A stretch of 64,000 nt of DNA, from the NCBI GenBank assembly GCA_016199745.1, contig JACQFZ010000071.1, positions 1-64,000 on the forward strand. The letters run 5' to 3'. Positions 42,873-63,396 of this stretch are shown one piece after another. The stretch's first letter is position 1. Each line of letters begins with the position of its first letter. Source of the stretch: Gammaproteobacteria bacterium. GTDB lineage: Bacteria; Pseudomonadota; Gammaproteobacteria; Acidiferrobacterales; Sulfurifustaceae. The notes under the pieces are model-generated. The model was not told the DNA's origin and searched no databases. It saw only the letters and a list, made by a program, of their open reading frames with translations. The position numbers and the translations under genes are program-made.

Positions 42873-42917
42873 ATGACCGCTATTGCAGAAGCTTACTGCC
42901 GGGGCAGCGTCTATTGA
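42873..42917 (+). CDS. Putative 14-residue leader peptide coupled to hyfB
   Basis: ATG at 42873 with GGGAG eight bases upstream opens a 14-codon frame (MTAIAEAYCRGSVY) whose TGA overlaps the hyfB ATG as TGATG. The hyfB start itself has only GGGG 13 bases away, so translation could be coupled. Function, if any, would be to set hyfB expression. No codon clustering suggests attenuation. Confidence 0.4.
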   Translation: MTAIAEAYCRGSVY

Positions 42918-44920
42918 TGGCCGCATTGGGCTCGCCGATCGTCTGGTTTTTGGCCGTCGCCCTCTTTTGGTTCGCACTCGGCGTGCTCGGGTTGGCACGC
43001 TCGCGCAGCATTCTCTATATCGGGCGCATGCTGTTTCCGCTCGGTGCGGTCGGCGGGCTGGTGCTGGCGGCGGTGGCGTTCGGTGCGATCGCTAGTACGC
43101 CGGAAACCTTGGTTCTCCCTATCGGCCTGCCGGATCTACCGTTTCACCTACGCGCCGACGCGCTCACCTGCTTCTTCCTACTATTACTCGGCACTGTCGC
43201 CGCCGGCATCTCGATCTTCGCCGCCGGCTATTTTCGCGCCGGCACCGGTTCGACACCGGGCCTGTTGTGCCTGCAATATCATATGTTCCTGGCGAGCATG
43301 ACGTTGGTGCTGTTGGCTGACGACGCCTATGCGTTCATGGTAGCGTGGGAAACGATGGCGTTGTCATCGTATTTTCTGGTGACGTCGCAGCATCGCGTGC
43401 CGGAGATCCGCCGCGCCGGATTCCTTTATTTACTCATCGCCCACGTCGGCGCTATCGCCATTCTGTTGTGCTTCGGCGTGCTCCAAGGCGGCAGCTGGCA
43501 ATTCACGTTCGACGCCATGCGCACCGCTAATTTGTCGTCGACATGGGCGACGATAGCGTTCCTACTCGCCACCTTCGGCTTCGGCGCCAAGGCCGGGCTC
43601 GTGCCGCTGCACGTGTGGTTACCGGAAGCGCACCCAGCGGCGCCGTCGCCGGTGTCAGCGCTCATGAGCGGCGTGATGCTGAAGACCGCGGTTTACGGTT
43701 TATTGCGCGTCACCTTCGATCTCTTGCACGTACAGACCTGGTGGTGGGGCCTGCTACTGGTCGGGCTCGGCCTGTTTACGGCGTTGTACGGCGTTGTCTT
43801 CGCCGCCGTGCAGACCGACATGAAACGGCTGCTGGCGCACTCGTCGATCGAGAACATCGGCATCATCTTCGCCGCCGTCGGTTTGGCAATCGCGTTCGAT
43901 GCCTATCAGATGCCGGAGTTGGCGGCGATCGCGCTCGCCGCCGGCCTGTTGCACTGTTTGAACCACGCTTACTTCAAGAGCCTGCTGTTCCTGGCCACCG
44001 GTTCGGTGTTGCATGCGACCGGCGAACGCAACCTCGGCAAGCTCGGCGGTCTGGCGCGGCGCATGCCATGGGTCGCCGGGCTTGCGCTCATCGGCACAGC
44101 GGCGATCGCTGGCCTGCCGCCGCTCAACGGCTTTGTGTCGGAGTGGTTGCTACTGCAGGCGTTTCTGTTTACGCCGACGGTTCCACAGCCATTTGTGAAC
44201 ATGCTGCTGCCGCTCGGCGCGGCGCTGCTGGTACTGACGGCGGCGCTCGCCGGCTACGTCATGGTCAAATTCTATGGCGTCATCTTCCTCGGCCAACCGC
44301 GCGAACCGAAACTGGAGCAGGCGCACGACGCCGGCCGGCTCGAACGGCTCGGGCTGTTGTGGCTCGCTGCCGGCTGCGTGCTACTTGGCGTCCTGCCGGT
44401 GCCGGTGTTCGCGCTGCTGAGCCATGTCAGCGAATTTCTTTTAGACACGCCGCTCGCGAACCACACGCCGAGCCTGTGGTTGCTGGCGCCGATATCGGCC
44501 GCGCGCGCGAGCTACAGCCCGCTGATTTTCTTCGTCAGTATCCTGCTCGTGGTGGCGATCGCATTCGTTGTCGTGCGCCGGTTGTATCACGGGCGCGTGC
44601 GCCGGGCGCCGCCGTGGGATTGCGGCTATCCGGCGCTGACGGCGCGCATGCAGGACACCGCCGAAGGATTCGGCCAGCCGATCCGGCAAATCTTCGAATC
44701 GTTCTTCCGCATGACGCGCGAGCTGCCGTCGCCGTTCGACGCACGCCCACACTATCGCGTGCAGGTCGCCGACCGCCTGTGGCACGCGCTCTATCTGCCG
44801 CTCGCCACCGCCGTGCAGCGCACCGCCGAGCTGGTCGGCAAACTACAGCACGGCCGTATCGCCACCTACCTGCTGTACAGCTTCGTGACGCTGCTGGTGT
44901 TATTGATGATCGTCCTATGA
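42917..44920 (+). CDS. hyfB: HyfB/HycC-like antiporter-type membrane subunit
   Basis: A 667-residue inner-membrane protein of the NuoL/M/N-MrpA family with about 16 helices. Conserved charged sites include the Glu in MVAWETMALSSYFL (helix 5 glutamate) and the Lys in GFGAKAGLVPLHVWLPEAH. The LKTAVYGLLRV and HCLNHAYFKSLLFLATGSVLH segments are also characteristic. The C-terminal ~80 residues resemble HycC/HyfB. It should form one ion-translocating channel of the complex. ATG at 42917 chosen over a TTG three bases earlier. Its stop overlaps the next start (ATGA). Confidence 0.93.
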   Translation: MAALGSPIVWFLAVALFWFALGVLGLARSRSILYIGRMLFPLGAVGGLVLAAVAFGAIASTPETLVLPIGLPDLPFHLRADALTCFFLLLLGTVAAGISIFAAGYFRAGTGSTPGLLCLQYHMFLASMTLVLLADDAYAFMVAWETMALSSYFLVTSQHRVPEIRRAGFLYLLIAHVGAIAILLCFGVLQGGSWQFTFDAMRTANLSSTWATIAFLLATFGFGAKAGLVPLHVWLPEAHPAAPSPVSALMSGVMLKTAVYGLLRVTFDLLHVQTWWWGLLLVGLGLFTALYGVVFAAVQTDMKRLLAHSSIENIGIIFAAVGLAIAFDAYQMPELAAIALAAGLLHCLNHAYFKSLLFLATGSVLHATGERNLGKLGGLARRMPWVAGLALIGTAAIAGLPPLNGFVSEWLLLQAFLFTPTVPQPFVNMLLPLGAALLVLTAALAGYVMVKFYGVIFLGQPREPKLEQAHDAGRLERLGLLWLAAGCVLLGVLPVPVFALLSHVSEFLLDTPLANHTPSLWLLAPISAARASYSPLIFFVSILLVVAIAFVVVRRLYHGRVRRAPPWDCGYPALTARMQDTAEGFGQPIRQIFESFFRMTRELPSPFDARPHYRVQVADRLWHALYLPLATAVQRTAELVGKLQHGRIATYLLYSFVTLLVLLMIVL

Positions 44921-45867
44921 ACGCGATCGATGTGCTCACGCAGGTGGTCGAGGTGCTGATCGCGATTGCGGTCGCGCCGCTGTACTTGGGCTGGGTCAAT
45001 CAATGCCGCGCGTGGTTGCAGAATCGCAACGCGCCGCCGCTGCTACAGACATACCGCCTGATCCGCAAGCTGCTGCACAAAGACGCGGTGCTGGCGACAC
45101 ACGCGTCACCGATCTTTCGCGGCGTGCCCTATGTCCTGTTCGGCACGATGGTGCTGGTCGCCGCCATTATCCCGACGATCAGCGTCGACCTGCCGTTTGG
45201 CCGAGTGGCCGATGCCATCGCCCTGGTCGGGTTGTTCGCCACCGCCCGCGTCGCCATTGCCCTGGCGGCGATGGATATCGGCACCGCATTCGGCTCGTTA
45301 GGGGCGCGCCGCGAAATGCTGATCGGCTTCCTGGCGGAGCCGGCGTTGCTGATGGTGTTCTTCACCACCTCGTTGCTGGTCGGCAGCACGGCGCTGCCGG
45401 CGACGGTGGCGGCGCTGGTGCAACACGAACTCGCCATCTATCCGAGCCTCGCGTTCGCGGCGGTAGCCTTCCTGATGGTGCTGCTCGCCGAGAACGCGCG
45501 CATTCCGATCGACAATCCGGCGACCCACCTCGAGCTCACCATGATTCACGAGGCGATGGTGCTCGAATACTCCGCGCGCCACCTGGCACTGATCGAGTGG
45601 GCGTCAGCGCTGAAGTTATTCAACTACGCCTGCATCGGCTTCGCGCTGTTCGTACCGTGGGGTATCGCCGGTGGCGACGCGCCGGTGACGGCGTTGTTGC
45701 CGGCGACGGTATTATTGGCAGCCAAGCTGCTGGTCGCCGGCAGCGGTCTGGCGCTGATCGAGACCGTGAGTGCCAAGCTGCGTATCTTCCGCGCGCCGGA
45801 ATTTCTGGCGACCGCCTTTCTGCTGGCGGTGCTGGGAATGCTCATTCGGTTGTTACTGGGGAGCTGA
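44917..45867 (+). CDS. hyfC: HyfC/HycD-like (NuoH-related) membrane subunit
   Basis: A 316-residue membrane protein with eight helices. It carries the NuoH/HycD loop with conserved acids, AENARIPIDNPATHLELTMIHEAMVLEYS, near residue 190. In complex I and group 4 hydrogenases this subunit links the electron-transfer module to the proton channels. ATGA overlap with hyfB (44917-44920). A much longer frame running in from hyfB is a shadow. Confidence 0.93.
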   Translation: MNAIDVLTQVVEVLIAIAVAPLYLGWVNQCRAWLQNRNAPPLLQTYRLIRKLLHKDAVLATHASPIFRGVPYVLFGTMVLVAAIIPTISVDLPFGRVADAIALVGLFATARVAIALAAMDIGTAFGSLGARREMLIGFLAEPALLMVFFTTSLLVGSTALPATVAALVQHELAIYPSLAFAAVAFLMVLLAENARIPIDNPATHLELTMIHEAMVLEYSARHLALIEWASALKLFNYACIGFALFVPWGIAGGDAPVTALLPATVLLAAKLLVAGSGLALIETVSAKLRIFRAPEFLATAFLLAVLGMLIRLLLGS

Positions 45868-45870
45868 CAC

Positions 45871-46536
45871 ATGAACCCGCTACCACTGTCGTCCCAACTC
45901 ATCAACCTGCTGGCGGCGCTGCTGCTGTTGCTGTCATTCGCCATGCTAGCACAGCGGCGGATCGCGCTGCTGGTGCAATTGCTGGCGTTGCAGGGCCTGG
46001 TGCTGTTTATCTCTACGGTCGTCGTCGCCATCCGCGCCGACCAGCATCATCTTTATTATTCCGCGGCGCTGACGCTCATGCTCAAAGTTATCGTGCTGCC
46101 GTGGATCCTCTATCGCCTGATCCGGCGGCTGCACGTGCAGTGGGACATCGAGACGCTGGTGAAGATACCGACGACGATGTTGCTCGGCCTCATGCTGGTG
46201 GTGTTCGCCTTCGGCCTGGCGCAGCCAATCTCGGCGTTGGCAGTAACGGTTACGCGCAGCACGCTCGGTATCGCGTTGGCGGTGGTGCTGCTGGCGTTCC
46301 TGATGATGATCACCCGGCGCAAGGCGATCGCCCAGGTGATCGGCTTCCTGGCGATGGAAAACGGCCTGTTCTTCGCCGCCACCAGCGCCACCTACGGCAT
46401 GCCGATGGTGGTCGAACTCGGTGTCGCGCTCGACGTGCTGGTCGGCGTGCTGGTGCTCGGCATCTTTCTGTTCCACATTCGCGAGCAGTTCGACAGTCTC
46501 GACCTGCAGCACCTCGAATCGCTGAAGGAACGCTGA
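45871..46536 (+). CDS. hyfE: HyfE-like membrane subunit
   Basis: A 221-residue protein with seven to eight helices; the C-terminal part resembles NuoK/MrpC (FLAMENGLFFAATS with a membrane-embedded glutamate). HyfE is found in hydrogenase-4 complexes but not in FHL-1. It starts three bases after the hyfC stop and is followed by hyfF after one base. Confidence 0.9.
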   Translation: MNPLPLSSQLINLLAALLLLLSFAMLAQRRIALLVQLLALQGLVLFISTVVVAIRADQHHLYYSAALTLMLKVIVLPWILYRLIRRLHVQWDIETLVKIPTTMLLGLMLVVFAFGLAQPISALAVTVTRSTLGIALAVVLLAFLMMITRRKAIAQVIGFLAMENGLFFAATSATYGMPMVVELGVALDVLVGVLVLGIFLFHIREQFDSLDLQHLESLKER

Positions 46537-46537
46537 C

Positions 46538-47989
46538 ATGGAATTACTGGTTCTGCTCGGTGTACCGTTGACCGGGGCGTTGCTGCTGCTCTTGATCGGC
46601 GGGCGCGAACACGCTCCTGAGGTCAACGTACTGGCGAGTACGGCGACGTTGGTCGCGGCGGCGGTACTGACCGTGCGCGTCATTCGCGACGGGCCGATGT
46701 TGGTGTGGAACGATCAGCTGTTCGTCGACTCGTTCAACGTTTTTCTGGTGTCACTCACCGCCCTTGTTGGCTTAACGACGGCGTTGTTCTCACGACCGTA
46801 CATGCGCATTGAAGCCCTTCACGGGCGCGTCACCCACAAACGGCTGCGCCTGTATCACGGCATGTTCCAACTGTTCATGTTCACCATGCTGCTGGCGCTG
46901 CTCACCAACAACCTCGGCATCCTGTGGGTGGCGATGGAAGCGGCGACACTGTCGACGGTGCTGCTGGTATCGCTGTACCGCACGCCGCAAAGTTTAGAAG
47001 CGGCGTGGAAATATTTCATCCTGTGCGGCGTCGGTATCGCGCAAGCGCTGTTCGGCACGATCCTGCTGTACTTCGCCGCCGAGCAGCTGCCCGGCATCGA
47101 AGGCATGAGCGCGCTGCTGTGGACCCACCTGAACGACGTCAAAGGTCAACTCGAGCCGCAGATCCTCGGGCTCGCGTTCGTATTTCTGCTGGTTGGTTAC
47201 GGGACCAAGGTCGGACTCGCACCGGTACACAACTGGCTGCCCGATGCGCACGCCGAAGGTCCGACACCGATCTCGGCGGTGCTGTCCGGGCTGCTGCTCA
47301 ACGTCGCGTTGTACGCGGTGATCCGCTGCAAAGTGCTGGTCGAAGGCGCGTTGCAGTCGACGTTGCCGAGCCAGATGCTGATGGCCTTCGGCTTATTATC
47401 GGTGGTGCTGGCGGCGTTCTTCCTCTGGCGCCAACGCGATATCAAGCGACTGTTTGCCTACTCGTCGATCGAGCATATGGGCATCATCACCTTCGCCTTC
47501 GGTCTCGGCGGGCCGGTGGCAAACTTCGCTGGCCTGCTGCACATGACGGTGCACTCGCTCACCAAGTCGGCGATCTTCTTCGCCGTCGGTCATGCCGCAC
47601 AAAAAGCCGGCACCCAAATCATGGACGACATCCGCGGCTTGGTGACGGTGAGCCCGACGGTCGGCTGGGGCTTGATGTTAGGCACACTGGCGATCCTCGG
47701 CATGCCGCCGTTCGGCGTATTCGCCAGTGAATTTCTGATTCTGACGACGGCGATGCGCGAGCAACCGTGGGCGACGCCGCTGTTGCTGCTCGCGCTCGGC
47801 GTCGCCTTTGCCGCCATCTTCAGTCGTGTGCAACCGATGGTGTTCGGCGAAACCAACGTCGCCCGGTTGCCGCACGCGCCGGCGCTGATTCCGGTGTTCG
47901 TGCATCTGGCGATCGTACTGCTGCTCGGCTTGTATATTCCGCCTTACTTGGCCGATTGGTATCGACAGGCGGCCGAGTTGATCCAATAG
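46538..47989 (+). CDS. hyfF: HyfF-like antiporter-type membrane subunit
   Basis: A 483-residue NuoN/M-like protein with about 14 helices, the second ion-translocating subunit. It keeps the helix 5 glutamate (WVAMEAATLSTVLLVS) and the Lys-containing GYGTKVGLAPVHNWLPDAHAEGPTPISAVLSG loop, split here as GYGTKVGLAP and HNWLPDAHAE. It also has FAYSSIEHMGIITFAFG. This is the fourth gene of hyfBCEFGI; a 60-base gap with a small hairpin separates it from hyfG. Confidence 0.93.
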   Translation: MELLVLLGVPLTGALLLLLIGGREHAPEVNVLASTATLVAAAVLTVRVIRDGPMLVWNDQLFVDSFNVFLVSLTALVGLTTALFSRPYMRIEALHGRVTHKRLRLYHGMFQLFMFTMLLALLTNNLGILWVAMEAATLSTVLLVSLYRTPQSLEAAWKYFILCGVGIAQALFGTILLYFAAEQLPGIEGMSALLWTHLNDVKGQLEPQILGLAFVFLLVGYGTKVGLAPVHNWLPDAHAEGPTPISAVLSGLLLNVALYAVIRCKVLVEGALQSTLPSQMLMAFGLLSVVLAAFFLWRQRDIKRLFAYSSIEHMGIITFAFGLGGPVANFAGLLHMTVHSLTKSAIFFAVGHAAQKAGTQIMDDIRGLVTVSPTVGWGLMLGTLAILGMPPFGVFASEFLILTTAMREQPWATPLLLLALGVAFAAIFSRVQPMVFGETNVARLPHAPALIPVFVHLAIVLLLGLYIPPYLADWYRQAAELIQ

Positions 47990-48052
47990 TGAGTCGCGCG
48001 ATGGAATATTAGGTTCCTTCCCCTGAGGGGAGGAAGAATACAGGAGCAAATT

Positions 48053-49594
48053 CTGAATAAGACAATAGACCGTATCGCCTGGGAATCGCTGACGACCGCC
48101 GTGCCGGTGCGGCGGGCACGCGTCGACGCAGCACAATGGCGCGCATTCACCGCCGCGGTGCGCGACGCCGGCGGCCGGTTGTTAACCCTGTGGGCCAGCG
48201 ATGTACGCGATCTCGCCGGCGGCTTTCTCGTGCGAGCAACGCTGCAGGATCAACAAGGATTGGCGGTGCTGGAATTGCCGCTAACCGAGTCGGCGCCGGA
48301 ATATCCGACGCTCACCCCGACGTTTCCGAACACCGCGCGCATGCAGCGTGCCGCTTATGACATGATCGGTGTACGCGCTGCCGGCGACGATGCGCGTCCA
48401 TGGTTGCGGCACGAAGCTTGGCCGACGAACACGTTTCCGCTACGCCGCGATTTTCCAGCAGCGCACCGTTACGACATCGGTACGCCCGCCTATCCGTTCG
48501 TGCCGGTCGAAGGCGACGGCGTGCACGAGATTCCGGTCGGGCCGGTGCATGCGGGCATCATCGAATCCGGGCATTTTCGTTTTTCGATTGTCGGCGAGAA
48601 AGTGCTGCGCCTCGAGCAGCGCTTGGGCTACGTGCACAAAGGCATCGAAAAGCGCTTCGAGTCAATGACGCTCGGCGACGGCCAGCGACTGGCGGCGCGC
48701 GTGTCCGGCGATTCGGCAGTGGCGTTTTCCTGGGCCTACTGCATGGCACTGGAAAGCCTCTGCCACACGACCCTGTCAGCACGCGCACTGTGGTTGCGCG
48801 CGTTCTGCCTCGAACGCGAGCGCATCGCCAATCATCTCGGCGATCTCGGCGCGCTCGGCAACGACGCCGGCTTCGCTGTCGGTCTGACGCAGTTCTCTTT
48901 GCTGAAGGAAAACGTATTGCAGTCGAACGTCGCCGCTTTCGGCTACCGTTACCCGATGGACTATGTCATCCCCGGCGGCGTCGCTCTCGATCTCGCCGAC
49001 GATGTGCGGACGGCGCTGCTCCGTGAGGGCGAAGCGCTAGCGCGTGATGTCGCCTCGTTGCGCCGAATTTATGACGATCATACCGGCCTACAGGATCGTT
49101 TCATCGGTGCCGGCCGCGTCGAGCCGGCACTGGCGGCGCGACTCGGTCTCACCGGCCTCGCCGGTCGCGCCAGCAGTCAACTATGGGACCTGCGCTGCGA
49201 TCATCCATCGGCGCCGTATAACACGCTCGGCGTACACATGGTGTCGCACCGAAGCGGCGATGTTGCCGCGCGCGTCATTGTCCGCTTCGACGAGGTCGTC
49301 GAGTCGCTGCGGTTGTGCCAGCAACTCCTGGAACAGCTTCCCGGCGGCCCGATCCACAGCGAGCTCGGTGCCACACCGGAAACCGGCTTCGGCACCGGCT
49401 GCGTCGAAGGCTGGCGCGGACCGGTTTTGATCGCACTCGACAATGCCGGCAATATTATCCGCCGCTGTCACGCGCACGATCCATCGTGGCACAACTGGCC
49501 GGTACTCGAACACGCGGTGATCGACAACATCGTTCCGGATTTCCCGTTGATCAACAAATCCTTCAACCTGTCGTACAGCGGTCACGACCTCTAG
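48053..49594 (+). CDS. hyfG: HyfG/HycE-like large subunit without Ni-Fe ligands
   Basis: A fused NuoC-NuoD-like protein of 497 residues from GTG 48101, or 513 from CTG 48053. I prefer CTG because CAGGAG lies six bases upstream and the frame is open; this needs proof. The fold markers GPVHAGIIESGHFRF, RLGYVHKGIE and CLERERIANHLGDLGALGNDAG are intact. In hydrogenases RxCGxC and DPCxxC bind Ni-Fe. Here, in GTG numbering, they read RVSGDS (S202, S205) and LSYSGHDL (S491, G494). All four cysteines are lost, so Ni-Fe catalysis is excluded. It belongs with hydrogenase-related (Ehr) proteins. Usual hyp maturation genes are not nearby. Confidence 0.92.
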   Translation: MNKTIDRIAWESLTTAVPVRRARVDAAQWRAFTAAVRDAGGRLLTLWASDVRDLAGGFLVRATLQDQQGLAVLELPLTESAPEYPTLTPTFPNTARMQRAAYDMIGVRAAGDDARPWLRHEAWPTNTFPLRRDFPAAHRYDIGTPAYPFVPVEGDGVHEIPVGPVHAGIIESGHFRFSIVGEKVLRLEQRLGYVHKGIEKRFESMTLGDGQRLAARVSGDSAVAFSWAYCMALESLCHTTLSARALWLRAFCLERERIANHLGDLGALGNDAGFAVGLTQFSLLKENVLQSNVAAFGYRYPMDYVIPGGVALDLADDVRTALLREGEALARDVASLRRIYDDHTGLQDRFIGAGRVEPALAARLGLTGLAGRASSQLWDLRCDHPSAPYNTLGVHMVSHRSGDVAARVIVRFDEVVESLRLCQQLLEQLPGGPIHSELGATPETGFGTGCVEGWRGPVLIALDNAGNIIRRCHAHDPSWHNWPVLEHAVIDNIVPDFPLINKSFNLSYSGHDL

Positions 49595-49600
49595 GCTGCC

Positions 49601-50116
49601 ATGCTGCGCACACTATTTCGAATTGTCCGAACCGGAGTGGTCAGCGAACCGGCGCCGCCACCGGCGCAAGCGCTGCGTCAACGCGAGGCGCTGCAACAGG
49701 ACATCCTGCGGATCATGGGTCGGGCCCTCTGTATCCGCCACGTCGATGCCGGCTCGTGCAACGGCTGTGAGCTCGAGATCCATGCGCTCAACAATCCGCG
49801 CTATAACATCGAAGGACTTGGCATTAAATTCGTCGCCAGCCCGAGACATGCGGATATGTTGCTGGTAACAGGACCGGTATCAGTCCATATGGAAGTTGCG
49901 CTGAAGCGCACTTATGAAGCGACCGCCGACCCTAAGTTGGTCATCGCCATCGGCGATTGCGGTGCCGATGGCGGCGTCTTCGGCGAGTGCTACGCCAGCC
50001 GCGGGCGCATCGCCAACGTGATTCCGGTCGACGTTGTCGTTCCCGGTTGCCCGCCAACGCCGACGGCGATACTGCAGGGCATCATTACCGCAATTACCGC
50101 TCGCGTCGGCGACTGA
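49601..50116 (+). CDS. hyfI: HyfI/HycG-like small subunit
   Basis: A 171-residue NuoB-like protein holding the proximal 4Fe-4S cluster. All ligands are visible: C53 and C56 (CNGCELE), C120 (GDCGADGG) and C150 (PGCPPTP). So one redox centre of the complex is retained although the large subunit has no Ni-Fe site. It starts 7 bases after hyfG and is the last gene of the operon. The two NuoI/HycF-like ferredoxins that normally feed it are absent. Confidence 0.93.
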   Translation: MLRTLFRIVRTGVVSEPAPPPAQALRQREALQQDILRIMGRALCIRHVDAGSCNGCELEIHALNNPRYNIEGLGIKFVASPRHADMLLVTGPVSVHMEVALKRTYEATADPKLVIAIGDCGADGGVFGECYASRGRIANVIPVDVVVPGCPPTPTAILQGIITAITARVGD

Positions 50117-50786: not shown

Positions 50787-50893
50787 AACTGCTTCTCCCA
50801 TCGCTGTTTCAGAACGACCTATTATGCGACTCGTCGCTACGCCGGGTCACTCGGCGTCCGCCCTCCTACCGCGGGACCGTCTATTCTTTGGTC

Positions 50894-51703
50894 ATGGCCT
50901 TTAAAAATAGACGCCGACGGTGGGCATTTTTGCTCGCCGCGGTATTGCTGCCGGTAACGACGTTCGCCGATGAGCCGCTGGTACTGTTGCTGCAACCGCT
51001 CATGCATCACCCCGCCGAGCAAGGTTATCGCCCACTGACCCAACATTTAAAAGCACTAACCGGACACGACTGGGTCGTGCAGGCGCCGACCGAATTCGTC
51101 GTTTACTGGGAGACGCTGCGCCGCAACGCCTACGACTTGGCGCTCGATGCACCGCACTTCACCGATTATCGTGCGCGCAAATTCGGTTTTACCGTGCTCG
51201 CCAAAGTGCCGGACACGTTGAGCTACAGCCTGCTCGTGCGCGCCGACCAACGCATCGCCGACCCGACCACGCTCGCCAACAAACGCATCGTTACGCTCGG
51301 CTTCCCGCACATGGGCCCGGCGCGATTGCAGGCGATATTTCCCAATCCGCTACGACAACCTGTCGTCATCGAAACCGCCGACGCCGTTGCCGCCATCGAA
51401 TCGCTGCTCAGCCAAAAAGCCGATGCCGCGCTGTTACCGGCGACCTTCGTCAGCGAACGTATGGAGCAAGGCGGCCTAACGGTTGTGTTGAGCACCGAAC
51501 CGTTGCCACAGCTGGCGCTGTCAGCATCACCGCGGCTATCGAGCGCTATGCAAAACGCCATCCGCGATGGCTTTCTCGAAGCCCACAAAAACATGGGTGG
51601 CCGCAAGATGTTGCAAATCCTCGGCGTCGACCGCTTCGAACCCGCTACCGCCGAGCTCTTTTTAAATCAAGGAAACATTCTTAAAAGTTACTGGGGGTAC
51701 TAA
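50894..51703 (+). CDS. PhnD/SsuA-like periplasmic solute-binding protein
   Basis: A 269-residue exported protein. Signal peptide (basic FKNRRRRWAF, hydrophobic core, cleavage near TTFADEP) precedes a type II binding fold of the phosphate/phosphonate-binding (PF12974) family with VVYWETLRRNAYDLALDAPHF and DAVAAIESLLSQKADAALLPA. No ABC permease or ATPase gene is adjacent, so it may be an orphan receptor or serve a sensor. Start at ATG 50894; a TTG two codons earlier is possible. The ligand is unknown. Confidence 0.75.
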   Translation: MAFKNRRRRWAFLLAAVLLPVTTFADEPLVLLLQPLMHHPAEQGYRPLTQHLKALTGHDWVVQAPTEFVVYWETLRRNAYDLALDAPHFTDYRARKFGFTVLAKVPDTLSYSLLVRADQRIADPTTLANKRIVTLGFPHMGPARLQAIFPNPLRQPVVIETADAVAAIESLLSQKADAALLPATFVSERMEQGGLTVVLSTEPLPQLALSASPRLSSAMQNAIRDGFLEAHKNMGGRKMLQILGVDRFEPATAELFLNQGNILKSYWGY

Positions 51704-55309: not shown

Positions 55310-58300
55310 TCACTTTATCCGGCCTTTCGCCAGCAGCGCGTCGATGTTCTTGAACAACTCTTCTTCTTGGTACGGCTTGCTCATGTACATGTCGACGCCG
55401 AGCTCGAAGGCCTTCTGCCGATGTTTAGCGCCGGCACGCGAAGTGATCATGATGATCGGGATATGTTTCAAGCGTGCTTCCGAGCGCACGCGGCCGGTGA
55501 GCTCGTAACCGTCCATGCGCGGCATTTCGATGTCGACCAGCATGAGATCGGGCTCGGCGTTGCGCAATTGCTCGACCGCGTCGACACCGTCCTTCGCCAC
55601 CATGACGTCGAAACCGCGCTTTTGCAGATGCTTGCCGGTGACTTTGCGCACAGTAAGCGAGTCGTCGACCACCATGACGATCGGACGTTCGCGAACCGGC
55701 GCCGCCGGCTCGACTGCCTGCAGCCGGCTGTGCTCGACGCGCAGCAGCATGTCTTCCGAATGCCATAAGCCGGCGATGTCCAAGATCAGCACCACGCGGC
55801 CGTCGCCCATGATGGTGGCGCCGGATACGCCTTTGATCTCTACCAGCTGCGGCCCGAGGGCTTTGATGACGATTTCGCGCGTGCCGCCGAGACCGTCGAC
55901 GTGCAGTGCAACGTCGCGCGTACCGGCGCGGGCCAACAATACCGGCACTTTACGACTGCTGCGACCGCTCGGCGTGGAAGTTATGCCGAGGCGCGCACCT
56001 AAGTTCATGTACGAGTACAGCTGATCGTTATGATTCAGCAGCGGATGCTTACCCACCGACATCTTGGTGAGTTGCTCGACCGGGCACTCGATGATGTTGG
56101 CGACCGACGCGATCGGGATCGCGTACTGATGCTCACCGACATAAACCATTAGCGCCTGCGCGATCGACAACGTCAGCGGCAGGCGAATGTGGAAGGTCGT
56201 ACCTTTGCCCGGCTCGGTCTTGACCACCATGCTGCCACCAAGCTGTTTCACTTCGCTATGGACGACGTCCATACCGACGCCACGGCCGGACACTTGCGTA
56301 ATGGTAGCGGCGGTCGAGAAGCCGGACAGCAGCACGAACTGCAAGATGTCTTCTTCCGTAAGATTCGCGTCGACGGTAACGAGACCGCGCTCGATCGCCT
56401 TAGCGCGAATGCGGTCGAGGTTCATGCCGGCACCGTCGTCGCCGAAGCGGATGACGATTTCGCTGCCTTCTTGCGCAGTGTGGATCGTAATGCGGCCGGC
56501 CGGCGGCTTGCCGAGACTGACACGATCGGCCTCGGATTCGATGCCGTGATCCAAGCTGTTGCGGATCATGTGCTCGAACGGGCCGATCATGCGCTCCAAC
56601 ACTGTACGATCGATCTGCACGTCGGCGCCGGCGATATCGAGTTCGCAGCGTTTGCCGAGATCACGCGCCGTTTGCCGCACGATGTGACGCAGTCGCGCCG
56701 CTTGGGTCGAGAACTCGACCATGCGCGTGCGCATCAAGCCTTCTTGCAAATCGGTGTTGAGGCGCGCTTGTTGTTGCAAGACGGTCTCGGCCTCGCCGAC
56801 GAAAGCGCCCATGTTCAATTGGATCGTCGTCAAGTCGTGCAAGCTTTCGGTCAAGCTGCGCGTCAGTTGTTGCAACTTCGAGAACCGGTCGAACTCGAGC
56901 GGATCGAAATCGACCCCCGACGTCTCGCCACTCTCGACGCGATAAAGAATTTGCGACTCGGATTGGATTTCGAGCTCGCGCAGCTGCTCGCGGAAACGCG
57001 TGACGTTGCGCCGCAGCTCGGCTAAGTTGTCGCGGAAGCCATAGATCTGCTGCTCCATGCGCGCGCGTGAGATCGACACTTCACCGGCGTAATTAACGAG
57101 GTTGTTGAGCAGGTCGGTGCGAACACGAATTTGGCCTTGCCCCTGCCCTTGGCGATCGGCACCGCGCCGATCGGCGATGCCTTCGCCTTCGGCCGGCGGC
57201 GGCGTGATGTCTTGTGCCTCGGCGGCAATTCGTACGGGTGCGGCGACTTTGGGCGTCGACGTCGGAACGGGCGTAATCGGCGCTACCGGTCGCGGCGTTG
57301 GTTCCGGCGGGCGCGCGACAACCGGCGGGGCAACAGGAGCGGCCGGAATGACCGGCGGCGGCGAGCTACGCTCGATCACCGGCTCCGGCACATCGATCAA
57401 CATTTCCGGCTCGAATTCCGCGACCGGTTCGAGATCGATCTCCGACTCAGGTTCCGATGTGGATTCCGACTCGGGCTCGGTGGCGGCGGTCGGTGCCGGT
57501 TCTTCGGCCATTGGCGGTGCGGGTGCGAACACCGGCGGTTCCGCGGCACGCTCGGCGACCATAGGGCGACCGGCAGCAACGGCGTTTAACCGCTCGGTCA
57601 GCGCGTCCAAGCCAGGTTGCGGCTCGCCACTACCGATATGGCCCAACATCGACACTAATAGATCGTGCGACTCCTCTAGCAGGTCGAACAGTACCGGCCC
57701 TGGGGTAAGGGTGCGGCTTTCTACCTGCATGAGCAATGATTCGGTGATATGGCTCAGGTTACCCATATCGAGCGCCCCGGCCATGCGCGCGCCGCCTTTC
57801 AGGGTATGCAACGCGCGCTTAAGCTCCGGCAACGGGCTCATATTGTCCGGCTGTGCCCGCCACGCGCCGACCATTTGCTCGACCGTATTGAGGATGTCTG
57901 CCGCCTCTTCGCGGAAGATTTCCAATAATTCCTGGTCGATCACCGATTCGGGAACGGCGCTTATCGGCGCTGCCGGCGGCGGCGGTGCAATCGGTGTGGC
58001 AGCGATCGGCGGTGGCGCTGGTGCGACCTCGACCACTTCGTACGCCGATTCGTCATCGACTGTCGGCTCAGAGGCGCCGATCAACTCGATGCCATCGTCG
58101 GCATTATCGGCAACGACGATGTCGTCGATCTCGGCGGCGTTGATCTCCGGCGCTTCCGGCAATTCGATCGATTCGTGCTCGGCTTTCGCCGAGCGCGCAA
58201 TTTGGTCGAAGCGCCCGGTCAAATCATCCGACGCCCCCATTCCGCTCGCGACCGCATCGACTAGGTCATTGACCGAACCGGTAAAACTCTCGAAGTAACC

Positions 58301-61093
58301 AAGATGCGCATCGACCAGCGGTAAGTGCCGCGCTTGCAGCGCGTGCAACAGTTTTTCCAGCTCGGCGCAAGCGTCGGCCATCATCGGAATGCCAAGCGAG
58401 CGTGCGTTACCTTGTAAGGTATGAATCGAACGCATCAGGCTGCCGGTCGGCAGGCCGGTGCCACCGGCGCCGCGGAATCCGGCGATTTCGGTTTGAATGC
58501 TGCGAACGTGGCCGCGCGCTTCGTTGGTGAAAATTTCCAGCAGCGGCCCATCGAGCTTGGGCAACGGCTTACTTGTCGGCGTCGCCGGCTTGGTCGAAGC
58601 ACCGCGATTCTCTACTAGGTCGTGCGCACGCCGTTCCAGCGCGGCGATGTCGACATCGGGCGCCGGTCCGCCTTCGAGCTGCGCCACCATCAACGGCAGC
58701 ACTGCCAGCGATTGATCGATGATTTCGAACATCATTGGCGACGTTTGGATCTTGCCGTCGCGCACGTGGTTCAGCATGTTCTCGACCGACCAGGCGAACT
58801 CGGCGATGACCGTCGCGCCGACCATGCGGCCGCTGCCTTTTAACGTGTGATAGCCACGACGCACGTCGGCGAGGGCAGTATGATTGTCCGGCTTAGCGCG
58901 CCAGCCGGGATACTCGCGACCGATATTGCCGAGCACGTCGCGCGCGTCTTCGATAAAAATCTGCAGAATTTCTTCGTCGAAATCGTCGGCCGGTGCAGCG
59001 GGCGTCGGCTTTGCGGGCGGTGGCGACGCTGGTGCGGCAGCCGGAACTGACGACGGTACCGACGCACGCTGACCGAGAGCATCGCACGAGGCACGCAGCG
59101 TAAGCCGCACTTCAGCCGACAACGCCGACGGATCTTCGGCAACCAACTCAAGCAACCGATCCATCTCCGCAACAATCTGCCGGGTACGCTCCGGATCGTG
59201 GGTCAATTGCGTCGACACGTCGGTCAGTGCATTTTGTACCGCAGCAAATGCATCGGCGGCACTCGGCTCGGCCAGCCAAGCATCGAGGGACATACGCAAC
59301 GTCGTTAACGGATCGTTGCCGGCAGCACTGTGGCCACCCATCTTGCTCTGCACCGCCACACGCATTTCGCGCAGCGCGGATTCGATAAGCGGATCGAGAT
59401 TCTTGCGGCCGGCACGCAGACCATCGACGTAGGCGCCGATGGTGCCGATACAAACGGCGAGGCCGTCGAGAATCGCCGAATCCGCCGTCAGCGTCTTGCG
59501 GCGGATATCTTCGACGTGTTGTCGCGTCGCCGACGTCAGCTCGACCACGCGTTCGACGCCGAGCAATACTTCCAACGCGCCTTGAATCTGGCCCAACTGC
59601 TTTGGCACGTCGTCCAAACGCTCCAACTGCGTGTTGTGCGTCGCAAAACCTTCGAGCGCTTCTTCGATCTTGGTGAGGTTCACGCCGACTTCAGTCGCGA
59701 CCACACCCAGTAACTGCTTGTAGTCGCTCTCGGTCAGCTCGGCCTCGCTGACATCGATGTCCTCGACCGGTGGACCTTCGCTCGGGATGTACAACGACCG
59801 TAGCGCCACGATCGCTTGATCGATCTGGTGCTTCCAGTCGGCAACCGAACCATGGACATCGCGCGCACCGGCTTCGATCAGCACCAACGTTTCCGCCATC
59901 GGCATTGACGCCGCCGGCGGATTCTCGATCTGACCTTCGCCCAACGCCTCGCACGTCGCCAAGAATTCTTCGACCAGCCGCCGCAACAGCGGCATGCCCA
60001 TCATTTCGAGCGTGCCGGCCATCTTGCGCAGCAACTCGCGTAACGGCGCGAGCGACGCTGCGTCGGTCTGTCCCGAGTCGAACGCGCTCGCCAACAAGTC
60101 TTGTGCCTGCTCGATCTCTTTGGCGAGCACGCGCGACACCGATTCCATAACCTCGGGCGAGGATTGATCATCGCCCGCGTTCGGTTCGTCGTCGATGCGA
60201 CCAAGCAGCGCATCCAGGCCAAACGCCTGCTTGAGTTGACGAACCTTAGGACTGTCGGAGCCTACCTGCGCCAAGTCGAACAACACCGAACGCACCAACG
60301 CCTCGGACGAGCTACGTAACATCGACTTCTCGGCGCCGTCGACAATCTTTTTAATCTGTTGATCGACGCGCGCCAACAGCTTCTTACGTTCGGCGGTGGG
60401 TTCGAGATCGCCATCGATCATGCCCGCCAGCAAACCGCCGGCAACCCAGAATAATTGCTCGAGCACGCCCATGCCGGCCTGAAGCTGCAGCTCATCGAGC
60501 GCGCCGGCGATAGTCTGCAACGGCGGCTTGTCGTTGGTGTCGCGCAACCAGCTGAGCAACGCTCCTTGGAAGCTCGGGCGCAGTTGCCGCGCCAACGCCG
60601 CATAGTCGGCGTCGGTTAGACGCTCGCGTGGCGCCGCCGGTGTTGGCGGTCGCACGGAAAGATCGGGTTGAAAAAATTCGAGCTCGGACACCGGCTCCGC
60701 TTTGCGGGCGGCGCGCAACTCATTAAGTAAGGGTAAGTGCTTGAGCGGAACGTCGGGATAACCGACCTGCAACCGCGCCAAGTAATCGGGCAGGATGAGA
60801 ATGCCGCGGGTCAGCGCTTCGAGAACTTCGTGCGACGGCTCGACCTTCTCGTCGAACACCGACTCGGCCAGCGCTTCGACCTCGCGCGCCATCATGGCGG
60901 CGCCGTCGAGTTCGACCATCAACAACGTACCGACGACTTGATGCAAATGCGTAATACAAAAGCGCAGGCGAGCGCGATCGACCGGGTTCTCGACGAATTC
61001 CTCCAAGGCGACACGCGCCTGCTTGAGGGTCTCGTCGATTTCGTTTTTGACCCAGCCGAGTGTGCTGGGGTCGACCTTTCTGAACGTGCTCAT
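55310..61093 (-). CDS. chpA: ChpA-type multi-HPt CheA histidine kinase
   Basis: The 1,927-residue hub of Pil-Chp signalling, controlling twitching motility or cAMP in Pseudomonas. It has several HPt-like domains: an N-terminal one with ITHLHQVVG (about residue 49), and repeats with phospho-His motifs HTLKGSGRM (about 748), IHTLQGNAR (about 889) and ALHTLKGGARM (about 1093). A proline-rich linker follows (about 1190-1320). The P4 ATPase (IRNSLDHGIE, about 1500), a CheW-like P5 domain and a C-terminal receiver with VDIEMPRMDG (phospho-Asp about 1850) complete it. It phosphorylates the PilG/PilH regulators. Confidence 0.93.
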   Translation of the reverse strand: MSTFRKVDPSTLGWVKNEIDETLKQARVALEEFVENPVDRARLRFCITHLHQVVGTLLMVELDGAAMMAREVEALAESVFDEKVEPSHEVLEALTRGILILPDYLARLQVGYPDVPLKHLPLLNELRAARKAEPVSELEFFQPDLSVRPPTPAAPRERLTDADYAALARQLRPSFQGALLSWLRDTNDKPPLQTIAGALDELQLQAGMGVLEQLFWVAGGLLAGMIDGDLEPTAERKKLLARVDQQIKKIVDGAEKSMLRSSSEALVRSVLFDLAQVGSDSPKVRQLKQAFGLDALLGRIDDEPNAGDDQSSPEVMESVSRVLAKEIEQAQDLLASAFDSGQTDAASLAPLRELLRKMAGTLEMMGMPLLRRLVEEFLATCEALGEGQIENPPAASMPMAETLVLIEAGARDVHGSVADWKHQIDQAIVALRSLYIPSEGPPVEDIDVSEAELTESDYKQLLGVVATEVGVNLTKIEEALEGFATHNTQLERLDDVPKQLGQIQGALEVLLGVERVVELTSATRQHVEDIRRKTLTADSAILDGLAVCIGTIGAYVDGLRAGRKNLDPLIESALREMRVAVQSKMGGHSAAGNDPLTTLRMSLDAWLAEPSAADAFAAVQNALTDVSTQLTHDPERTRQIVAEMDRLLELVAEDPSALSAEVRLTLRASCDALGQRASVPSSVPAAAPASPPPAKPTPAAPADDFDEEILQIFIEDARDVLGNIGREYPGWRAKPDNHTALADVRRGYHTLKGSGRMVGATVIAEFAWSVENMLNHVRDGKIQTSPMMFEIIDQSLAVLPLMVAQLEGGPAPDVDIAALERRAHDLVENRGASTKPATPTSKPLPKLDGPLLEIFTNEARGHVRSIQTEIAGFRGAGGTGLPTGSLMRSIHTLQGNARSLGIPMMADACAELEKLLHALQARHLPLVDAHLGYFESFTGSVNDLVDAVASGMGASDDLTGRFDQIARSAKAEHESIELPEAPEINAAEIDDIVVADNADDGIELIGASEPTVDDESAYEVVEVAPAPPPIAATPIAPPPPAAPISAVPESVIDQELLEIFREEAADILNTVEQMVGAWRAQPDNMSPLPELKRALHTLKGGARMAGALDMGNLSHITESLLMQVESRTLTPGPVLFDLLEESHDLLVSMLGHIGSGEPQPGLDALTERLNAVAAGRPMVAERAAEPPVFAPAPPMAEEPAPTAATEPESESTSEPESEIDLEPVAEFEPEMLIDVPEPVIERSSPPPVIPAAPVAPPVVARPPEPTPRPVAPITPVPTSTPKVAAPVRIAAEAQDITPPPAEGEGIADRRGADRQGQGQGQIRVRTDLLNNLVNYAGEVSISRARMEQQIYGFRDNLAELRRNVTRFREQLRELEIQSESQILYRVESGETSGVDFDPLEFDRFSKLQQLTRSLTESLHDLTTIQLNMGAFVGEAETVLQQQARLNTDLQEGLMRTRMVEFSTQAARLRHIVRQTARDLGKRCELDIAGADVQIDRTVLERMIGPFEHMIRNSLDHGIESEADRVSLGKPPAGRITIHTAQEGSEIVIRFGDDGAGMNLDRIRAKAIERGLVTVDANLTEEDILQFVLLSGFSTAATITQVSGRGVGMDVVHSEVKQLGGSMVVKTEPGKGTTFHIRLPLTLSIAQALMVYVGEHQYAIPIASVANIIECPVEQLTKMSVGKHPLLNHNDQLYSYMNLGARLGITSTPSGRSSRKVPVLLARAGTRDVALHVDGLGGTREIVIKALGPQLVEIKGVSGATIMGDGRVVLILDIAGLWHSEDMLLRVEHSRLQAVEPAAPVRERPIVMVVDDSLTVRKVTGKHLQKRGFDVMVAKDGVDAVEQLRNAEPDLMLVDIEMPRMDGYELTGRVRSEARLKHIPIIMITSRAGAKHRQKAFELGVDMYMSKPYQEEELFKNIDALLAKGRIK

Positions 61094-61238: not shown

Positions 61239-63368
61239 TTAAGCCGGCAGCTTGAAGCCGGCGACCGACGCCTGCAATTCGCGCGCGAGGTCGGACAACT
61301 TACCGATGGACTCGGCCGTCTGCCGCGTACCGGTCGACGTGAGACTCGTCGTCTCTTGAATCTTCGCCATACTGGTCGACACGCCGGTCGCTGCTGCCGA
61401 CTGTTGATGCGCGTCGCGCGAGATCGACACAATCAGGCTCGAGAGCTGTTCCGACACCGATTCGATTTCGCCGAGCGATTGACCGGCGGCATCGGCGAGG
61501 CGCGTTGTTTCGACCACGCCGTTGGTGGCTTGCTCCATCGACGCCACCGCTTCGTTGGTGTCCGCTTGAATCGTCTTAACGAGGTCGGCGATCTGCTTGG
61601 TCGCTTCCGCCGAGCGTTCCGCGAGTCGTTGAACTTCGTCCGCGACCACCGCGAAGCCGCGGCCCGCTTCACCGGCCATGGCCGCTTGAATCGCCGCGTT
61701 CAGCGACAAGATGTTGGTTTGTTCGGCGATGTCGTTGATCAGCTCGACGATTTCACCGATCTGTTGCGACGACTCACCAAGACGCTTAATACGTTTCGCG
61801 GTCTCTTGAATCTGCTCGCGCATCGAGTCCATACCGCGGATCGTGTTCTGCACCGCCTCGGTTCCGCGCTTCGCCGTGTCGACCGAGCCGCGCGCCACTT
61901 CGGCCGCGGTTTCCGCCGACATCGCCACCTCGTTCATCGAGGTCGCCATTTCTTTCATCTTCACCGTCTGCTCGGTGATCTGCGCCGCTTGCCGCAGCGC
62001 CGCTTCGGTCAGCTCGGTCGCCGTTTGCCGCGCGTGCTCGGATGACACCGCCACCTGTTGCGACGCGTTTTTGATACGCGTTACTAGGTTGCGCATTTCG
62101 CGCACGGCGTAATTGATAGAGTCGGCGATCGCACCGGTGATTTGTTCGGTCACCTCCGGCTGAATCGTCAAGTCACCGTCGGCCAAGTCGCCCATTTCGT
62201 CGAGCAGCTTGAGAATGGCGTCCTGCGTCTGGCGGTTCTGCTCCATCGATTGTTTGGCACGTTCGCGGGCGTCGACAACCAACTTGAACGCCAACATGAT
62301 CATGAACGCCAAGGAGAAGACGGCGGCGACGATCGTCGCAATCTGCAGACCGATACGGGCTTGCGCCAAAGCGGTATAGGCATCGACCAACGAGCGCGAA
62401 CGCGCCAGCATCGGATCGGATAATTGGAACACCTGTTGGCTCGCGCGTTGCGACACGAACAACTCGGCGGCGCTGCCCAAAATGCCTTCGATGTGGGTAT
62501 TAATTTCACCGAACACGGTCGACGCTTCGTCTAACTTCGGCTCCAACGCCTTCGGAATCGACGTGCGCAACTTGGTCTCGGTTTCTTTAAAGAGTTTGGC
62601 GTCGCGACCGAACTGGGCCGCGGCGACACCGGATTCGACACCGCCTTGCGCGTACAAGTTAACGTCCTTGGCGATACGTTGCGACAACATGCCTTGGCGG
62701 CCGGCGAGGTACAGGTTGTCCTGCTTCATGCCGGATTCGGCGCCGAGCTCGACGATTTCGTCGGAGATCGATAGCAGCAGCGGCGCCATTTGGTTAATCG
62801 CGACCACGTGATCGTGCATCGCGAACAACGCTTTTTCTTGCGACAGAATTTGGTCGACTTCGACGCGCAGGCCTTCGGTCGGGCTCGGCGTCCACATGGT
62901 GATAACTTCTTTGAGCTCGGCGTCTTGGATAGCCTGCGGGCTCGACGTGATGTTTCTGGCCGGGTCGCCGGTACTCAAGGTGTTAATGATTTGATCGAAC
63001 AAGTCGCGCGACTCTTTCAGCGTCTTGAACGCGATCGGCTGACCGAGCACCGCTTCGCGCGCGTCCTTGGCGAGGCGTTGCGACAACATCAGCAGCTGCG
63101 ACGATTGCTCGATGTATTTGGCTTCGAGCTCGGCTTGGCGACCGTTGGAGATCAACAACCAAACCAGGGCGAAGATCGAGAACGAGAAACCACCCAAGAT
63201 GAATGGGAAGCCGGTGAATATGCTTTTGATTCGACCCAGCAGCGACGGACCGCTCTCTGCCGCCGCTTCGAATTCGGTGCTTGCCGGATCGGCAATGCGC
63301 GCATCGGCGAGGTCAATGATGTCCTCGGACGGTTGGTCGATTAAATTTTCTTTGGTTACTTTTGCCAT
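61239..63368 (-). CDS. pilJ: PilJ-type methyl-accepting chemotaxis protein
   Basis: A 709-residue transmembrane receptor of the Pil-Chp system. Membrane segments lie at about residues 54-76 and 345-372. The periplasmic part contains two PilJ-type repeats ([15 protein letters not shown] and [15 protein letters not shown]). A HAMP-like region and a C-terminal signalling domain with [18 protein letters not shown] follow. ATG at 63368 is preferred over 63374 because GAGG is at proper spacing. It sits between pilI and chpA with a repeat-bearing gap. Confidence 0.95.
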
Positions 63369-63396
63369 TGTCATCTACCTCTACTCGTTATCTCTC

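Follow-up and report, generated by a model that had tools for sequence, protein, structure and literature searches.

A tightly packed operon of six genes, hyfB-C-E-F-G-I, was studied in a 64 kb stretch of contig C71 (the window) from a gammaproteobacterial genome of 4.26 Mb in 72 contigs that was 98% complete. The operon lies on the + strand (42914-50116) and encodes a complex of the energy-converting hydrogenase-related (Ehr) type, placed there by its composition and its missing ligands and compared with named Ehr complexes by description. Gene calls together with Pfam and NCBIfam models, which were used for family assignment, confirmed the six-gene operon proposed in an earlier note made from the sequence of the window. 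HyfB, HyfE, and HyfF matched hydrogenase-4 models, HyfE below threshold (101 bits against a cut-off of 136). The hyfB and hyfC genes overlap by 4 bp, the C-E, E-F, and G-I junctions measure 3, 1, and 6 bp, and the F-G gap is 60 bp, provided that hyfG starts at 48050. No ATG, GTG, or TTG codon was found for hyfG before the GTG at 48101, though its relatives align upstream of that position; because of this alignment, a start at CTG 48053 or ATT 48050, behind an AGGAG at 48042, is likelier. Residues of HyfG are numbered here from 48065. A hairpin between hyfF and hyfG (48014-48035, TTCCTTCCCCTGAGGGGAGGAA) had a z of -0.9 against shuffled sequences and no T run. The operon is flanked by a transketolase gene, named from its sequence, on the opposite strand, and on the other side by an AhpC/TSA-type gene.

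Among solved chains, HyfG was matched best by HycE of the Escherichia coli formate hydrogenlyase (FHL), both by sequence (E 3e-55) and by fold (TM-score 0.85). Alignment with HycE placed S214, S217, S503, and G506 of HyfG opposite the four ligand cysteines C241, C244, C531, and C534, and agreed with the earlier note that both CxxC pairs are replaced (RVSGDS and NLSYSGHDL). The ligand positions were then counted in 125 HyfG rows, consisting of the window, 78 rows from 80 named relatives after removal of copies, and 46 from other genomes of the phylum. Rows with identical last 150 residues had been dropped before this set was formed (including two of three Pseudogulbenkiania copies), and L081-L083 and L087, from the window's own genome, were left out of the counts. 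Cysteine was present at the four positions in 9, 3, 0, and 0 rows, respectively, with the C531 position Cys in 0/125 and the C534 position Gly in 125/125. The full ligand set was absent from every row; up to 12 rows retained a single cysteine of the first pair, and no row had kept a cysteine of the second pair. The 124 other rows, from other contigs and genomes, are likewise without the ligand set, which makes it very unlikely that the window contains a sequencing error at these positions. We also considered and rejected a His-x-His metal site (R-C-H-x-H-D-P-S-W), which was found in 81 close rows, the wider family often having Y-F-V-R or C-H-L-R.

The end of the protein was equally uniform. 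HyfG terminated one residue past the YxGxD motif in 125/125 rows, where a stretch of 33 residues is present in HycE and HyfG of E. coli. In hydrogenases such an extension is removed on maturation, as reported for the 32-residue tail of Pectobacterium HyfG in the available parts of that paper (PMC7384014), and HyfG of the type studied here has none. The ligand-less HyfG ends where a mature hydrogenase ends and therefore has no need of a maturation protease.

The alignments indicated that the pocket of HyfG has been rebuilt and has not decayed, which is the new result of this analysis. With conservation expressed as the frequency of the most common residue, averaged over positions (0.64 for HyfG as a whole, positions above 25), segments 156-173, 212-217, 448-453, 471-475, and 490-508 scored 0.94, 0.84, 0.90, 0.91, and 0.90, respectively. 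Segment 490-508 ranked 17 of 466 windows across the 125 rows, and its strong conservation points to selection, not decay. The proton-handling residues of the superfamily are named in the FHL structure paper (PMC9474812, as available in part). The proton-donor Glu (HycE E193, HyfG E167), the canopy Arg (R478, HyfG R451), and the path residues H257, E410, and R368 (HycE H284, E437, and R395) were each kept in 125/125 rows, and the canopy S283 position (HyfG N256) was Asn in 122/125, as in complex I. The canopy Asp (HycE D529), which the accessible text of the same paper calls strictly conserved (PMC9474812), is N501 in HyfG and was Asn in 124/125 rows and His in one. Near-invariant residues new to this pocket were D216 (in place of Ile), D472 (124/125, Glu once), N497, and K498.

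A corresponding rebuilding was apparent at the quinone site. In complex I a His at this site is described as the proton donor to quinone (PMC9474812, in the parts available). The position of this His (NuoCD H224; HyfG I166, adjoining E167) was Ile in 125/125 rows. The complex I Tyr (E. coli NuoCD Y273 by alignment; HyfG G215), which we take to have a quinone-site role, was replaced by Gly in 119 and by Ala in 6 of the 125 rows. A canonical quinone site was rejected on these grounds, both residues being replaced in all 125 rows. Together, the alignments indicated that most of the proton route has been retained while the two known chemistries of this site have been removed. The retained quinone/proton-path fold of the earlier note thus stands for most of the proton path and fails for the quinone site.

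Residue counts for the other subunits were made after relatives covering less than 85% of a subunit had been dropped, which left 78 rows for HyfI, 71 for HyfB, 77 for HyfF, 75 for HyfC, and 76 for HyfE; HyfG lost none. Of the four proximal [4Fe-4S] cysteines of HyfI, C53 and C56 were kept in 140/140 rows (129 distinct) and C120 and C150 in all 138 untruncated rows, two rows being truncated. In HyfB, E146, K226, K304, K355, and E410 were invariant, K226 occupying the position of Leu208 in HycC of FHL-1, and in HyfF the same was true of E134, K224, K303, K343, and E398 (77/77). These counts bear out the earlier note on the cluster cysteines and on the key Glu and Lys residues of both antiporter-type subunits. 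HyfE residues K72, E163, E182, and D188 were invariant in 76/76 rows. The E-channel of HyfC had kept R111, E133, E141, E192, E206, and E212; H204 was found at the HycD E201 position and G105 at the Y102 position in 75/75 rows, and the E199 position (A202) was variable. With transmembrane Glu and Lys residues and E-channel Glu residues in place, and some E-channel positions different from those of HycD, the membrane subunits have the makings of a putative ion-pumping arm.

Table 1. Positions of the operon genes and of selected residues and motifs in the window.
Feature	Position	Strand	Basis
hyfB, antiporter-like (NuoL/HycC-type) subunit with C-terminal extension	42914 (TTG) or 42917 (ATG)-44920	+	Proton_antipo_M
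hyfC, NuoH/HycD-like subunit	44917-45867	+	NADHdh
hyfE, HyfE-like membrane subunit	45871-46536	+	hydrogenase-4 membrane-subunit model, below cut-off
hyfF, second antiporter-like subunit	46538-47989	+	Proton_antipo_M
hyfG, large subunit, 30-kDa + 49-kDa fusion, without [NiFe] ligands	~48050-49594	+	Complex1_30kDa + 49kDa
hyfI, NuoB-like small subunit	49601-50116	+	Oxidored_q6
HyfG E167, beta1-beta2 loop proton-donor Glu (HycE E193)	48563-48565	+	alignment, 125/125
HyfG R212-V-S-G-D-S217, in place of hydrogenase L1 motif RVCGIC	48698-48715	+	alignment
HyfG R451, canopy Arg (HycE R478)	49415-49417	+	alignment, 125/125
HyfG N488-IVPDFPLINKSFNLSYSGHD-L509, in place of L2 motif DPCxxCxxR	49526-49591	+	alignment
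HyfI cluster cysteines	C53 49757, C56 49766, C120 49958, C150 50048	+	

Searches for partner subunits and maturation genes gave few matches. The window had no match to HyfA, HyfH, HyfJ, HypC, HypD, NuoI, or NuoF. HyfD as a probe matched hyfB and hyfF only. The earlier note had proposed looking for hyp genes and HyfH elsewhere in the genome, and this search found no HypD (0 matches), one weak HyfH match, and one HyfH match that is presumably NuoI because it lies ~6 kb from nuoD. No PF00374 [NiFe] large-subunit protein was present in the host genome. A second, Cys-bearing large subunit in the operon, named in the earlier note as evidence that would overturn its reading, was not found; the only other PF00346 match in the genome, on C22, was taken as NuoD. 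Among the 80 named loci (median 20 kb of sequence, some as short as 3.4 kb), 72 had the six genes in order and 7 of the other 8 were cut by a contig end; in L023 the 1.1 kb preceding hyfG gave no match to hyfF. All six genes were also present in 15 of 17 further loci, and these 17 had no separate match to HyfA, HyfH, HyfJ, HypD, HypC, NuoI, or NuoF. A HyfH/NuoI match was seen in 1/80 loci (L031), within a second cluster beside the operon. Two CxxC relatives, L144 and L145, carried HyfA, D, H, and J.

The complex was found to be widespread. In a survey of 398 Pseudomonadota genomes, with at most three candidates scored per genome so that the counts are lower bounds, at least 62 genomes (the window's own included) matched the family profile at 400 bits or more. 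The large subunit was read in 37 of these 62 carriers (30 with loci and 7 more), and the ligand set was present in none; one more was cut by a contig end. At least 10 genomes matched at 266-297 bits, the level of Hyf/Hyc, and the two of these that were read were CxxC hydrogenases. Carriers that could be named included Nevskia, Rhodoferax, Paraburkholderia, Cupriavidus, Azospirillum, Rhizobium, and Methylocalor, and the membrane subunits were 57-80% identical among named relatives. All six genes were present in Cupriavidus metallidurans CH34 and in Paraburkholderia xenovorans LB400, the latter with two copies.

A tree of 85 large subunits, built with a small reference set, with the motif columns kept in and with NuoCD on a very long branch, placed the 70 rows of the window's type in one clade (support 99/95). 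The four hydrogenases formed their own clade (100/99), and the grouping with active group 4 hydrogenases that the earlier note had said would weaken its reading did not appear. The earlier note had also spoken of ligands that were lost. Their absence stood; loss is a direction of change that we infer, because the root of the tree was set only for drawing. An active hydrogenase was rejected on the missing ligands, the lack of any HypD or PF00374 match in the genome, and the missing C-terminal extension. The earlier statement that no hydrogenase activity is possible is upheld by the missing ligands, by a genome without HypD and PF00374 matches, and by the clade being separate from that of the CxxC hydrogenases.

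Several relatives in this tree were of other types. A CGSR pair joined the 70-row clade at 100/98. These second clusters (L152:1807-8881 and L153) carried a HyfH ferredoxin subunit and HyfG motifs RVCGSR or RVCGNR / KSFDLSYCGNDL, with one Cys per motif, of which the second stands outside the ligand positions; the canopy Asp was kept, and the type is a possible intermediate. The CGSR cluster of L152 was convergent to its Ehr operon, and in L151 the terminal part of a comparable G-HyfH-I cluster, whose motif was not read, lay upstream of the operon. An EASFGLT type (L143, L154-L159) stood apart in the tree; it had no ligand set, mostly RVSGVGS / EASFGLTxAGCDR motifs, usually a HyfH, and mostly the gene order C-E-F-G-H-I-B. 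Some genomes held the EASFGLT and Ehr types together, and G440 had two copies.

The HyfG of the window was 67% identical to that of Nevskia and 44-45% identical to those of one same-genus and three same-family genomes, which were on another branch (G398 (L125), G401 (L124), G402 (L123), and G403 (L140), compared with G000:C71). Horizontal transfer is likely on these identities, though the same picture would arise if one of two ancient copies had been lost.

Based on these observations, we favor, as having somewhat better than an even chance, the view that the complex pumps protons and would be powered by a substrate other than H2 or a normally bound quinone. With neither a HyfA nor a HyfH relay encoded in the neighborhood, a soluble redox partner would exchange electrons directly with the exposed [4Fe-4S] cluster of HyfI. 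In the HyfG pocket, D216, N497, K498, N501, R451, and D472 would hold a small polar substrate undergoing reduction or oxidation, and proton movement at E167, R451, H257, E410, and R368 and along the E-channel would drive the translocation of H+ (or Na+) by HyfB and HyfF. The main reason for preferring a redox machine to a plain transporter is the conservation of the cluster cysteines of HyfI. More tentatively, and at somewhat less than an even chance, we speculate that, besides its [NiFe] and quinone sites, the complex I superfamily has a third type of active site in the head of this complex. This pocket, with the canopy Asp changed to Asn and with the new D216 and K498, would act on a small substrate and drive the same proton pump. 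The complex would then be among the commonest of its kind in Proteobacteria, hidden because databases name its genes hydrogenase-4 or NADH dehydrogenase.

A number of observations weigh against a substrate-driven pump of this kind. No substrate, donor, or recurrent redox-partner gene was found beside the operon. HypD was present in 20 of 35 carrier genomes (completeness not reported), although the lack of a HypD match in the other 15 and in the window's genome speaks for the pump. The FHL proton-route residues E199, E201, and Y102 of HycD and H291, D354, and C430 of HycC are not kept. The canopy Asp is neutralized in N501, and the proton chemistry therefore cannot match that of hydrogenase or complex I exactly. 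AlphaFold models of HyfG (from 23 and 64 sequences) had a good overall fold, with the predicted local distance difference test (pLDDT) below 50 at ~143-192 and 482-509, such that the pocket was not modeled. Boxes of the FNR/FixK type upstream of hyfB had a best score of at least 8/10 in 13 of 90 regions (L031 and L152 holding the same operon), compared with ~15% of 1800 random stretches from the same loci; they were not enriched and therefore gave no hint of anaerobic control. In addition, the HyfI cluster can have been kept for structure alone, and a quinone could bind HyfG in a non-canonical way.

The last of these points leads to a quinone-linked minimal complex I, in which a soluble donor would reduce the HyfI cluster and an unusually bound membrane quinone would take up the electrons with proton pumping. 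HyfG and HyfC are homologs of NuoCD and NuoH, respectively, the canopy N256 (122/125) matches the Asn of complex I (PMC9474812, in the parts available), and a quinone pool would account for the lack of a fixed partner gene. We nevertheless consider this arrangement unlikely, with Ile at the His position and Gly or Ala at the Tyr position in 125/125 rows, and with the canopy Asp, which complex I keeps, being Asn in 124/125. A separate NuoI/HyfH match, moreover, was absent from the window and the 17 further loci and was seen once in the 80, in the second cluster. We give a similarly low probability to a redox-independent transporter of ions or solutes, with HyfG and HyfI as a regulatory or substrate-binding head on the antiporter-like arm, serving, for example, pH or cation homeostasis or coupling to the hydration of a small molecule. 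The operon has no electron-input subunit, its membrane arm is complete, the membrane protein DUF1275 recurs as a neighbor in some lineages, and pH homeostasis has been suggested for ehrABCDLS of Methylacidiphilum (PMC6688271, as far as that paper was available); however, four invariant cluster cysteines and invariant proton-donor residues are beyond the needs of a passive transporter.

A formate-linked complex with a separately encoded formate dehydrogenase (FDH) is less probable still. An FDH-Ehr has been proposed for Margulisbacteria and relatives (PMC6349859) and the Ehr proteins of Geobacter were more abundant on formate (PMC7894505), according to the sections of these papers that were available; yet no NuoF or HyfA match was found in the window or in the available flanks of the 80 and 17 loci, formate dehydrogenase genes themselves not being searched for. 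Finally, the absence of every metal ligand is what a degenerate hydrogenase relic would show, but the replacement residues hardly vary across the 125 rows, which come from many genomes of the phylum, the same HyfG tail occurs in Rhizobium and Azospirillum plasmid copies, and the six genes are intact and in order, with membrane subunits as similar among named relatives as given above. With the pocket among the more conserved parts of HyfG, a pseudogene or relic was rejected, and we regard it as extremely improbable.

The surroundings of the operon were also surveyed. In G+C-rich DNA the picker of open reading frames (ORFs) often took antisense frames, and the resulting clusters of neighbor ORFs serve as leads only. 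The DUF1275 membrane protein was encoded in 19/35 carrier genomes, and 14 of these 19 had a copy no more than ~12 kb from hyfG. At least three arrangements were seen, and many of these carriers were related Burkholderiaceae. It was upstream of the operon in L034, L041, L046, L047, L052, L059, L063, and L147, 33 bp downstream in L017 and L036, and on another contig in the window's genome. Spermidine-synthase-like genes were beside the operon in 20/80 loci according to the ORF clusters (e.g., L016, L021, L034, L041, L059, L061, and L151), and the pair of spermidine-synthase-like and DUF1275 genes also occurred away from it (G448 and G468). A small ribbon-helix-helix gene, CopG-like by sequence reading, was divergent and 38-260 bp before hyfB in L002, L008, L013, L025, and L048 and further from hyfB in other loci, 15/80 in all. 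Within the window, a phosphonate-type periplasmic binding protein (50888-51703, +) was encoded between redoxin and class-III aminotransferase genes. A CheA-like kinase of 1927 residues (55310-61093, -), with three Hpt stretches, HATPase, CheW, and receiver, was adjoined by a PilJ-type chemoreceptor (61239-63374, -), and the two probably represent a type IV pilus chemosensory cluster.

These findings bear on how such genes are read in genomes. Ehr complexes have been named in work on nitrifiers, methanotrophs, acidophiles, metal reducers, and mycobacteria, with a function that was unknown or only suggested in the parts of those papers available to us. Records that name the genes hydrogenase-4, hydrogenase expression protein HypE, or nickel-dependent hydrogenase mislead the inference of H2 metabolism. 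The question is now sharpened to which substrate fits a pocket from which both superfamily chemistries have been removed and in which most of the proton path has been kept, and residue-level predictions for HyfG and HyfI can now be tested.

The earlier note had recognized the pattern of Ehr complexes and called their role unsettled, and the literature, as far as it was available, was in accord on both points: a large subunit without Ni-Fe ligands is accompanied by the expected membrane and small subunits (HyfE below cut-off), and the function is described as unknown or only suggested. The Ehr class has already been published; its function has not. The founding analysis of the class is reportedly that of Marreiros in 2013. 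The available parts of later papers describe ligand-less Ehr complexes in Cyanobacteria-sibling lineages (PMC6349859), comammox Nitrospira (PMC10284858), ammonia-oxidizing archaea (PMC10432482), and Sulfobacillus (PMC4378227). For Methylacidiphilum (PMC6688271) and Geobacter (PMC7894505) Ehr is described without discussion of the ligands in the parts seen, and for Mycobacterium tuberculosis the available text argues from missing assembly genes (PMC6728331). Beyond the papers cited here, no newer structural or mechanistic work on Ehr was found among the matches listed; none of the papers listed for transposon-mutant phenotypes contained a term for the operon, and the accessible parts of a Gallionellaceae paper held nothing on Ehr complexes. 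With Geobacter GSU0739-45, Methylacidiphilum ehrABCDLS, Sulfobacillus, and M. tuberculosis Rv0081-Rv0087, as described in the parts available, the operon shares a group 4-type large subunit without ligands, Mrp/NuoL-, NuoH- or HyfE-like membrane subunits, and a small subunit (PMC7894505, PMC6688271, PMC4378227, PMC6728331).

Compared with the E. coli Hyf and Hyc systems (hydrogenase-4/FHL-2 and FHL-1), the complex has in common the matches to hydrogenase-4 models, the HycE fold, the proton-donor Glu, the canopy Arg, and the proton path. It differs in having no Cys ligands, no HyfA, HyfH, or HyfJ match, two antiporter genes instead of three, no C-terminal extension, an Asn for the canopy Asp, and a separate branch in the tree. 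With complex I (NDH-1) it shares the superfamily, the NuoB-type cluster, the NuoH E-channel, the antiporter Lys and Glu residues, and the canopy Asn256, whereas the quinone-site His and Tyr are absent and the window has no match to NuoF or NuoI, the sole probes used. The ferredoxin-linked relatives, the CGSR (L152/L153) and EASFGLT (L143, L154-L159) types, had a HyfH match in 8 of their 10 clusters in the tree, NuoI only in one, and neither in one (the second cluster of L155, cut by the end of the stretch); they have the same kinds of subunits as the operon of the window, with ligands that are altered or gone.

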